From Thiobacillus sp. (GTDB lineage: Bacteria > Pseudomonadota > Gammaproteobacteria > Burkholderiales > Thiobacillaceae), in assembly GCA_024709425.1 (NCBI GenBank), contig JANJWS010000103.1:28078-92077 (forward strand): a stretch of DNA of 64,000 nucleotides, written 5' to 3'. The notes under the pieces are model-generated. The model saw nothing but the letters and a program-made list of their open reading frames with translations, was not told where the DNA came from and made no database searches. Position numbers and translations under genes: made by a program. Of this stretch, positions 10,000 to 14,114 are shown in pieces. Numbering within the stretch: position 1 is the stretch's first letter; each line of letters opens with the position of its first letter.

Positions 10000-11430
10000 T
10001 CAGCCCTTGATGCAGACCAGGGGTTTCAGTTTCGCCACCTTGCGTGCCAGCCCGGCGCGATCGGCCGCTTCGACCACCGCACTGACATCCTTGTAAGCCC
10101 CCGGCGCCTCCTCGGCGACCCCGCGCAGGGAGGGGCTGCGAATCAGCACCCCCTGGCGCGCCAGTTCGTCGACCAGCGCGCGGCCTTGCCACTGGCGCGT
10201 TGCCTGATGCCGGCTCATGGCCCGCCCGGCCCCGTGGCACGCTGAAGCGAACGCACGCGCCCGGCCGGCTTCGGTGCCGACCAGCACGTAGGAGGCCGTA
10301 CCCATGCTGCCGCCGATCAGCACCGGCTGGCCAATATCGCGCAGGTCCCCGGGCAACGCGGGATGGCCAGGACCGAAGGCACGCGTAGCGCCCTTGCGGT
10401 GCACGTACAGGCGCCGCGTCTGCCCGCCGACGGTGTGCGGCTCCAGCTTGCAGGTGTTGTGCGAGACGTCGTAGACCAGGTCGAGCCGGGTGCCCGGACA
10501 AACGTCCGCAAACACCTCGCGCGCGAGATGGGTGATGACCTGGCGGTTGGCGAGTGCGCAGTTGATCGCCGCGCGCATCGCCCCCAGGTACGCCTGCCCC
10601 AGCGACGACCTGATCGGCGCGCAGGCGAGTTCGCGGTCGGGCAGGTCGATGCCGAAGCCCGGTGCCGCGATCACCATCTGCTTGAGAAATTCCGTGCCGA
10701 TCTGGTGCCCCAGCCCGCGCGAGCCGCAGTGGATGCTCACCACCACCTCGCCCACGCGCAGGCGAAACCGGTCGGCCGCCTTGCGATCGTAGAGCTCGAC
10801 GATTTCCTGCACTTCGAGGTAGTGGTTGCCCGAGCCCAGCGTGCCGATTTCGTCGCGCTGGCGGCGCTTGGCCTGATCCGACACCTTGACCGGTTCGGCG
10901 CCTTCCATGCGGCCGTGCTCCTCGATGCGTTCGAGGTCGGCCGCGTGGCCGTAGCCGCGCTCCACCGCCCAGCGCGCGCCGCTGCGCAACATGGCATCCA
11001 TTTCGTGTGCGTTGAGGCGCAGCGACCCTGTGCTGCCGACCCCCGCGGGAATATGCGCGAACAGGCGGTCGGCCAGCCGCTGCCAGACCGGCTCGATTTC
11101 GGCGGCGGTCAGACCGGTGTGCAGGGTGCGCACGCCGCAGGAAATATCAAAACCCACCCCGCCGGCCGACACCACGCCGCCGTCGTCGGGATCGAACGCC
11201 GCCACGCCGCCGATGGCAAAGCCATAACCCCAGTGCGCGTCCGGCATGGCATACGCCGCCTCGACGATGCCCGGCAGCGCGGCGACGTTGGCGAGCTGCT
11301 CGCCCACCTTCTCATCCATGGCGCGGACGAGCGCAGCGTCGGCATAGACCACCGCCGGCACGCGCATGCGCCCCACCGGCGCCATGCGCCATTCGGCATC
11401 CGACACCTGCGTGAAGCGCGCGAGATCCAT
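10000..11430 (-). CDS. rtcB: RtcB-family RNA ligase (3'-phosphate/5'-OH splicing ligase)
   Basis: 476 aa from ATG 11430; the track start adds 15 out-of-place residues. RtcB joins 2',3'-cyclic phosphate or 3'-phosphate ends to 5'-OH ends using GTP and Mn2+. Visible signatures: DAHWGYGFAIGG, GVGFDISCGVR with Asp95 and Cys98 at the canonical positions, GSGNHYLEVQ, SIHCGSRGLGHQIG, the DVSHNTCK metal site and CHGAGR, whose His is the guanylated residue. It follows the Cca-archease fusion by 14 bp in the same direction. Archease is the known activator of RtcB turnover, so the two almost certainly work together. No RtcA or RtcR gene is nearby, unlike the E. coli operon. Confidence 0.96.
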   Translation of the reverse strand: MDLARFTQVSDAEWRMAPVGRMRVPAVVYADAALVRAMDEKVGEQLANVAALPGIVEAAYAMPDAHWGYGFAIGGVAAFDPDDGGVVSAGGVGFDISCGVRTLHTGLTAAEIEPVWQRLADRLFAHIPAGVGSTGSLRLNAHEMDAMLRSGARWAVERGYGHAADLERIEEHGRMEGAEPVKVSDQAKRRQRDEIGTLGSGNHYLEVQEIVELYDRKAADRFRLRVGEVVVSIHCGSRGLGHQIGTEFLKQMVIAAPGFGIDLPDRELACAPIRSSLGQAYLGAMRAAINCALANRQVITHLAREVFADVCPGTRLDLVYDVSHNTCKLEPHTVGGQTRRLYVHRKGATRAFGPGHPALPGDLRDIGQPVLIGGSMGTASYVLVGTEAGRARAFASACHGAGRAMSRHQATRQWQGRALVDELARQGVLIRSPSLRGVAEEAPGAYKDVSAVVEAADRAGLARKVAKLKPLVCIKG

Positions 11431-11444
11431 GATCCTAAAAACCC

Positions 11445-13061
11445 TCAGACGTCGACGACGCACTGCGCGAGCCAACTGCCGGCTGCGTCCTGTTCAACCT
11501 TCAAGACAGTATAGGTCGCGCCCTTGATCTCGACCGCGGGCTGGTGCCGCGCCGTGTCGACCGGTTCGCCCCATGCGGTCGCGTGCAGATGATGGTTTTC
11601 CACATCGACCGTAAACCGGCCGAACAGCATGTGGCGCGCAGCCATTTCCAGGATCAGCGCATTGAGCCAGTCGACCAGCAGCAGTTCATCGTCGGGCGCC
11701 TCGCATTCGAAGTCGACCGCCTGCGTCCTGGCCACCCGCGCGGGATCGGTGACCACCGCCGTCATTGCCAGCGCCGCCTGCTCGAACGCCGCGGCGAGCG
11801 TGGGGCCGACACCGCGCACGCCCATGTCGGCCTCGTGCGGGAAATGCTCCCAATGCACGCGTGCCGCGGCCACTGCCTGCGCACGCGCCTGAAAAATGGC
11901 GGCCTTGATGCGTGCCGGCTCGACACTGCGCGCCACCGCGCCGGCGTCGACCGCCTGCGCGGCGCGCAGCGCCTGCCGCAGATGGTCTGGCGCGGGAAAG
12001 GCACGGGCCTCGTAGCCGGGACGGCCGCGAAAGTCGCATTCGCAGGCCTGCAGAAAATCCTCGAAGCGCTCCGACCGGCGGAACGCATCGACCCGTTCCA
12101 GCAGTTCGACGACGGTACCGGGACGCAGTTCAAGCGCGCGATGAACCAGTCCGTGCTCGCGCGCAACGGCAATGGCGAGGTCGCGGCAGTCGGTCGGCAC
12201 GCGCAGCCGTTCGCACATTTCGCCCACCAGCGCGGCACTCCGCGCTTCATGGCCGATGTGGCGCGGCCACAGTTCGGTGGGCGTCGTGCCCTTGCCGAGA
12301 TCGTGCACGAGCGCGGCGAACCGTACCGGCAGCGTGTGTCCCCGCTGCGCCGCCCAGTCGATCACGCGCATGACATGGACGCCGGTATCGACCTCGGGAT
12401 GGTGTTCGGCCGGCTGCGGCACGCCGAACAGGCGATCGAGCTCCGGCAACAGCCGCGCCAGCGCGCCGCAGTCGCGCAGCACCCCGAACATGCGCGAAGG
12501 CGTCGTTTCCATCAGCCCACGGGCGAGCTCCTGCCACACGCGTTCGGGGACCAGTGCGTCGACCTCGCCGTTGTCGACCATCTGCCGCATCAAAGCGAGC
12601 GTTTCGGGCGCGACCGAAAAATCAGTGAAGCGCGCAGCGAAACGCGCCACCCGCAGGATGCGCACCGGATCCTCGCCGAAGGCGTCGCTGACATGACGGA
12701 ACACGCGTGCTTCCAGGTCGTGCCGGCCACCGTAGGGATCGATCAGCGCGCCGGCCTCGTCCTCGGCCATGGCATTGATGGTGAGATCGCGCCGGCGCAG
12801 GTCTTCCTCCAGCGTGACGTCTGGCGCCGCGTACACGGTGAAACCCTTGTAGCCGCGCCCGGACTTGCGTTCGGTGCGCGCGAGCGCGTATTCCTCGTGC
12901 GTATCGGGATGCAGGAACACCGGGAAATCCTTGCCGACCGGCTGGAAGCCCTGCGCGATCATCTCCTCCGGCGTGGCGCCGACGACGACGTGGTCGCGAT
13001 CGGCCACCGCCCGCCCGAGCAGGCGATCACGCACCGCACCGCCGACGATGTAGGTCTTCAT
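11445..13061 (-). CDS. cca: CCA-adding tRNA nucleotidyltransferase fused to archease
   Basis: A single 538-aa ORF from ATG 13061. Residues 1 to ~400 align with the E. coli-type CCA enzyme: [45 protein letters not shown] and an HD-domain motif HDLGKG. Residues ~403-538 are a complete archease domain: [36 protein letters not shown], an internal [20 protein letters not shown], and terminal CVVDV with the Asp that binds metal in archease. No stop or frameshift lies at the junction, and the Cca part is essentially full length. rtcB follows by 14 bp. The protein should repair tRNA 3' ends while activating RtcB ligation; that coupling is inferred from fusion and context. Confidence 0.93.
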
Positions 13062-13076: not shown

Positions 13077-14114
13077 TCAGCGGTGCGCGTGTTCGCGATA
13101 CTGCTCGTAACGCGCCCGCGGACTATCCGCGCCAAGATATTCCGGTGCGACCGCCTCCAGCGCGGCGGGCTGGAAATCGAACACCGCCGGCCAGCCGCCG
13201 GTGCAGACATTGTCGACCAGCATGGCGTAGAAATTGTCGCGGGTCATCAGCTTTTTCCCGGGTTTCAGCTCCAGTGCCCAGGCCTGCAGGTAGGACAGCA
13301 CATCACCAAGGGGAATGATCGGGCGGCGGTGTCCGGTGAGAGTGCCCACGTAACGCACCAGTTCCAGCAACGTGTAGGCGCGCGGACCGCACAGCTCGTA
13401 TGCTTCGCCGATGGTCGCGGGATTGTCGAGGCTGTCGGCAAAGGCGCGCGCGACGTCCTCGACGTGCACCGGCGCGAAGCGCGCACGAGCCCCGGCGAGC
13501 GGGACCACAGGAGCAAGCTTGAGCAGGCCGGCGAACATCGACAGGAAGGAATCACCGCGGCCGAAGATCACCGAGGGGCGGAACACGGTGACGTCGAGCC
13601 CATAACCGTGCACGAACTTCGGGCCGTCGAGGTACCACTTTTCGTGCTCGACATGGCGCCGCCCCGCCTCGCGCACCAGCGCCTCGCCAATGCCCTTGGA
13701 ACGCTGGTAGGCCGAGCGCGAATTGGGGTTGGCACCGAGCGCGCTCATGTGCAGCAGGCGGCGCACGCCGGCTTCGCCCATGGCGTGGACGACCTTGCGC
13801 GGCAGTTCGACATGCACGCGCTGGAAGTCGCCGCGCCGCTCGGACGGCTTGTCGACACGGCCAGCCTTCCCCTCATGCAGGATACCGACCAGGTTGATGA
13901 CGGCATCGAGCCCGCGGAACTGGCGCAGCAGCGTCTGCGGATCGTGCACGTCGGCCTCGACCACCTCGACGGTGGGCAAGAGGATCAGTTCCTTGGCGGC
14001 CTCGCGGCGCCGGCTCAGCACCCGCACGTGGTGGCCGCGCGCGGCCAGCAGACTGACGATATGGGTGCCGACGAAGCCGGAACCGCCGAGAATGCCAATA
14101 CGTTGCGTGCTCAT
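13077..14114 (-). CDS. NAD(P)-binding epimerase, complex I NDUFA9-subunit-like
   Basis: 345 aa, ATG start. The N-terminal Rossmann motif is GGSGFVGTHIV and the SDR-type YxxxK appears as YQRSKG. The atypical extended-SDR body matches the NDUFA9/YfcH-like proteins common in betaproteobacteria. It probably binds NAD(P)H, and its substrate is unknown. It sits 15 bp upstream of the cca-archease gene and 42 bp downstream of slt in the same orientation, so it is likely cotranscribed. Nothing in it suggests RNA repair; its place in the unit may simply be ancestral synteny. Confidence 0.85.
   Translation of the reverse strand: MSTQRIGILGGSGFVGTHIVSLLAARGHHVRVLSRRREAAKELILLPTVEVVEADVHDPQTLLRQFRGLDAVINLVGILHEGKAGRVDKPSERRGDFQRVHVELPRKVVHAMGEAGVRRLLHMSALGANPNSRSAYQRSKGIGEALVREAGRRHVEHEKWYLDGPKFVHGYGLDVTVFRPSVIFGRGDSFLSMFAGLLKLAPVVPLAGARARFAPVHVEDVARAFADSLDNPATIGEAYELCGPRAYTLLELVRYVGTLTGHRRPIIPLGDVLSYLQAWALELKPGKKLMTRDNFYAMLVDNVCTGGWPAVFDFQPAALEAVAPEYLGADSPRARYEQYREHAHR

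Follow-up and report, generated by a model that had tools for sequence, protein, structure and literature searches.

The locus described here raises the question of whether a CCA-adding enzyme (Cca) and archease, the activator of the RNA ligase RtcB, can act as a single protein, and what such a protein would do beside rtcB. It lies in a 64,000-nucleotide stretch of a Thiobacillus sp. genome, referred to as the window. A first-pass annotation had read one 538-aa open reading frame as a complete Cca joined in frame to a complete archease, had named motifs of both parts, and had placed rtcB 14 bp downstream. This description is borne out in full by Pfam and NCBIfam matches and by the open frame, which together define a complete proteobacterial Cca followed by a complete archease; the motifs are present, and the distance to rtcB is exactly as claimed (Table 1).

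Table 1. Coordinates of the fusion gene, its domains and its neighbors in the window
Feature	Position	Strand	Basis or remark
cca-archease fusion ORF	13061-11445	(-)	538 aa, ATG start, internal stops absent
Cca part, residues 1-401	11859..13061	(-)	Pfam and NCBIfam matches
Cca nucleotidyltransferase head	12699-13055	(-)	Pfam PolyA_pol, residues 3-121, 69.3 bits
Cca RNA-binding domain	12432-12623	(-)	Pfam PolyA_pol_RNAbd, residues 147-210, 42 bits
Cca HD domain	12138-12380	(-)	Pfam HD, residues 228-308, 33.3 bits
Archease part, residues 403-538, and stop codon	11445..11858	(-)	Pfam PF01951, residues 404-538, 134.5 bits (cut-off 25), whole profile 1-136/136
Gap from fusion gene stop codon to rtcB ATG, 14 nt	11431..11444	(-)	Sequence
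rtcB, RNA ligase RtcB, 476 aa	10000..11430	(-)	Pfam PF01139, 564 bits, profile 1-426 of 426
NDUFA9-like NAD-dependent epimerase gene	13077..14114	(-)	Pfam Epimerase

The N-terminal part matches the NCBIfam model NF008137 ("multifunctional CCA addition/repair protein") over residues 1-401, with 650 bits against a cut-off of 451 and coverage of model positions 1-404 of 409. As in other class II bacterial Cca proteins with an HD domain (the E. coli Cca type), the catalytic motifs are intact: GGAVRD, the catalytic DxD (D21 and D23), RRD, EDxxR, and HD are all found, and they are invariant in those fused homologues that cover them. What distinguishes the protein from NF008137 Cca is the additional 136-residue archease domain at its C terminus. 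The archease match begins after residue 400 and is full length, and the nearest solved archease, that of Pyrococcus horikoshii (4n2p), aligns with residues 403-538. In an AlphaFold model, Cca is confidently predicted, with a last helix (382-402) that leads straight to archease; for the archease part the prediction is not confident, owing to the small number of archease rows in the alignment. Two PolyA_pol proteins are encoded in the genome, the fused Cca and a second one read as PcnB, and a genus-wide search with the RNA-binding domain likewise returned a strong group read as PcnB and a weaker group corresponding to Cca. The fused protein is the sole Cca found in this genome, which has one archease and, by own-genome search, only the RtcB listed in Table 1. 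No tRNA genes were found in the 64-kb window.

The fusion recurs in related genomes. Archease was found in 27 of the 56 genomes compared from this Thiobacillus-like genus, and in 14 of these (14 of 56 overall) it is in frame with Cca, which in one case is cut by a contig end. These are 14 species-level genomes spread across deep branches, and the junction is short and homologous in all of them. Since the window genome is fragmented (109 contigs, about 6% contamination), a sequencing or assembly error joining two separate genes deserves consideration. A stop codon or frameshift was sought at the junction, but the frame runs open across the same junction in each of the 14 assemblies, of which two (G002 and G007) consist of a single contig; these independent copies rule the artefact out, and its probability can be regarded as negligible. 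Production of a free archease from an internal start was likewise rejected, as no conserved start codon with a Shine-Dalgarno sequence occurs at the junction among the fused genes. A GTG occurs at V402 in the window and an ATG in G042, neither with a Shine-Dalgarno sequence upstream, and two further genomes (G055 and G004) have no start codon within 25 codons upstream of archease, so that a free archease is unlikely in them. Median omega values of 0.16 for Cca and 0.20 for archease indicate that purifying selection acts on both halves.

The link to RtcB is equally consistent. In the window, archease and rtcB are adjacent and co-oriented, and each of the 27 genomes of the genus that have archease carries rtcB next to it; the free, small archease by which an archease-rtcB operon is recognized is here a domain fused to Cca. 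Archease is present wherever RtcB of this type is, the only apparent exceptions being one RtcB at a contig end, where the surroundings are unreadable (G040), and two genomes (G046 and G014) whose RtcB is of another type and lies at another locus. The link is supported by the fact that archease and this RtcB type are absent jointly. The RtcB-family protein of G014, a genome without archease, is divergent (L278, 4962-6356; 464 aa, 215 bits). The NDUFA9-like gene is the usual upstream neighbor of cca and is conserved in the loci compared within the group.

The amino acids on which RtcB activation depends are also retained. H409, D412, K513, D537, and the C-terminal V538 are invariant in all 14 fused proteins, and in the alignment to 4n2p they match the metal- and phosphate-binding tip of archease. 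Their equivalents, which either bind the metal of RtcB or are needed to activate it (PMC3973293, PMC10944509), are D51, K156, D178, and I179 in the human protein and H9, D12, K117, D141, and the last residue in P. horikoshii, where altering any one of these five positions lowers activation (PMC3973293). In the human RTCB-Archease complex, a third Mn ion is held during guanylylation by D51, D178, and the terminal carboxyl group of archease (PMC10944509), and the archease residues that bind this ion match those of the fusion; human archease itself is a separate protein without a CCA-adding domain. As archease forms the C-terminal domain and is joined through its N terminus, its terminal carboxylate is free, whereas the reversed domain order would have blocked it. 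One difference concerns E8 of P. horikoshii archease, loss of which affects the use of ATP and not that of GTP (PMC3973293); the corresponding position is a proline in the fused archease.

We therefore consider it quite probable that the protein would be bifunctional, with each half keeping its known activity and archease serving the adjacent RtcB. The Cca half would add or rebuild the CCA ends of tRNA, and its HD domain would probably clear 2',3'-cyclic or 3' phosphates, while the archease half could provide the metal-binding tip that activates RtcB from the next gene. On sequence evidence, the fusion, its conservation, the intact catalytic residues, the co-occurrence with RtcB, and the status as sole Cca are established, and we infer that both activities would operate in the fused protein and that archease would act on the neighboring RtcB. 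The full-length domain matches, the 14 in-frame fusions among 27 archease-bearing genomes, the invariant activating residues, the lack of a second Cca or of a conserved start at the junction, and the low omega values all favor this reading. The most likely origin of the fusion is a cca-archease-rtcB cluster in which the stop or frame change separating the neighboring cca and archease genes disappeared. The benefit might lie in the joint production of Cca and archease, and perhaps in the placement of archease on tRNAs.

Against the bifunctional reading stands the viability of relatives in which the genes are split or archease-rtcB has been lost. In 12 of the 27 archease-bearing genomes, a lipoprotein-like gene separates cca from archease, and in one (G027) archease-rtcB is elsewhere, away from cca. 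In archease-free genomes, the NDUFA9-like gene and cca occupy the corresponding position but no archease-rtcB follows, and some relatives without archease and rtcB still keep Cca. As relatives persist with split genes or without archease-rtcB, the fusion as such is not essential. A direct trace of such a loss is found in G046, nested among fused genomes, in which Cca is followed by a TGA stop replacing an archease tryptophan and then by a short archease-like stretch, H*EHFAHQTGTGVRGID (L211; local score 65, shuffled maximum 33). This stretch is, by its sequence, a fossil of the fusion that retains the archease N terminus; the locus has otherwise lost archease as well as rtcB of this type.

The direction of these changes can be read, with some caution, from gene trees. 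With relatives from outside the genus included, the archease+RtcB tree places a fused row (G004) as sister to the remaining rows (98/93), the split rows being nested; the early branching of the fused row further favors the bifunctional reading. Both sides of the deepest forks in the four-gene tree include fused rows. The lipoprotein-like gene of the split loci (L139-L161; about 138 codons, no Pfam match) forms one clade (100/100), and its relatives in fused or archease-free genomes have a conserved place after proS- and lytic-transglycosylase-like genes, from which it is missing in the split genomes examined. It thus appears to have moved from the proS-lytic transglycosylase locus into the cca-archease junction. 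Because the split rows are nested and the usual place of this gene is vacated in split genomes, the split state looks derived; the genus appears to have started from the fused state, with one or a few later splits and several losses. A split ancestor is disfavored but possible: a single clade of split rows is neither proved nor rejected (AU p 0.106), and a separation of fused from split rows is not rejected (AU p 0.09).

Outside the genus, no Cca-archease fusion occurs among about 178 archease-bearing genomes (counted by hand) from family, order, class, and phylum samples. The longest archease-containing open frames in this sample (G195, G1008, G995, G927, G1071, G094, G358, and others) were rejected as lacking Cca, and nearly all of them have a start codon just upstream of archease. 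In a second family (f50, genus g95), the NDUFA9-like gene, cca, archease, and rtcB stand in the same order, unfused, and one of its members (G317) has a 4-nt overlap between the stop of cca and the GTG of archease, an arrangement that resembles a fusion intermediate and accords with the bifunctional reading. In another member (G403), a gene that by eye resembles glutathione-S-transferase lies between cca and archease (L330, 5079-5696). A single clade of the cca-linked archease-RtcB of the genus and of f50 was rejected by the archease+RtcB tree; the link to cca is therefore old, with losses, or has more than one origin.

This distribution also bears on a plainer account, namely that an archease-rtcB cassette became joined to the housekeeping cca through loss of a stop or frame change, the link being harmless and bringing no new function. 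It is favored by the lipoprotein-like gene, which apparently split the fusion in one or a few lineages, by the deletion of archease-rtcB elsewhere with Cca kept and one fossil left, and by the order and class genomes, which mostly have archease-rtcB distant from cca. The persistence of the fusion in 14 species-level genomes across deep branches and the recurrence of the unfused cca-archease-rtcB order in a second family speak against it. We take this account seriously while leaning slightly against it.

A stronger proposal had been made in the first-pass annotation, in which the fusion was seen as a dedicated tRNA-repair module, for example after toxin cleavage. The fusion does suggest a physical linking of two kinds of RNA repair, and tRNA-bound Cca could conceivably bring the RtcB activator to broken tRNAs, such as those left by anticodon-nuclease attack, so that the sealing of breaks would be coupled to CCA-end repair. 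Such a module, especially one directed against toxins, is plausible from the physical fusion, the adjacency of rtcB, and the recurrence of the cca-archease-rtcB order in two families. It would also fit a statement in PMC10673834, made there in citing Yakunin 2004, that bacterial Cca HD domains remove 2',3'-cyclic phosphates. However, RtcB joins ends of this same kind, so that the HD domain and RtcB could either cooperate or compete at tRNA ends, and competition would count against a dedicated machine. Moreover, no toxin, immunity, or damage-response gene and no RNA substrate is linked to the locus, and splitting and loss of the link are tolerated, with some relatives splitting the fusion and others keeping Cca without archease-rtcB. 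That archease has repeatedly become separated from Cca makes a need for the fusion itself less credible, and the pattern of splits and losses is as compatible with two separable activities as with an obligate module. Of the earlier interpretation, the fusion, its link to RtcB, and its absence from the papers searched thus stand, whereas the "dedicated tRNA-repair module" acting "after toxin cleavage" is at present a proposal; we consider a dedicated machine of this kind unlikely, and a role against tRNA-cleaving toxins could at most be hypothesized. More speculatively, Cca could serve as a tRNA-surveillance arm: as it inspected the ends of a damaged tRNA, it would deliver the archease tip to RtcB on that tRNA, and bacteria would thereby couple end repair with break sealing in a single step. 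We regard this as unlikely too.

Archease-rtcB operons and Cca are both known, and the new element is a lineage-restricted fusion inside a known archease-rtcB operon. The operon of P. horikoshii (Desai et al. 2014, PMC3973293) likewise has archease beside rtcB, with the same metal-binding residues and a free C terminus; archease is a separate protein there and the C-terminal domain of Cca here. The rtcBA RNA repair operon is also a bacterial setting for RtcB repair, in which RtcB is paired with RtcA and RtcR (PMC7790460). In agreement with the first-pass annotation, which knew of no characterized Cca-archease fusion, no description of one was found in the open-license papers searched. The finding bears on the natural substrates of bacterial RtcB and on the reasons for which archease is retained in some bacteria. 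That the activator of RtcB is stably fused to the cell's only CCA-adding enzyme points toward tRNA among the substrates, and the fusion offers a ready-made protein for testing this. The genus itself is a natural experiment, since closely related members show the fusion intact, split, lost, or reduced to a fossil.

Two further loci contain partial genes. In G346 (L334), all that remains of archease between cca and rtcB is its last ~30 residues, which makes this another decaying copy of the cluster. In G328, a single-contig genome, an archease without its C-terminal part runs into an RtcB without its N-terminal part (L171, 3995-5160); the frame upstream of this archease resembles, by eye, the start of a PolX-type DNA polymerase, and the locus has probably decayed.
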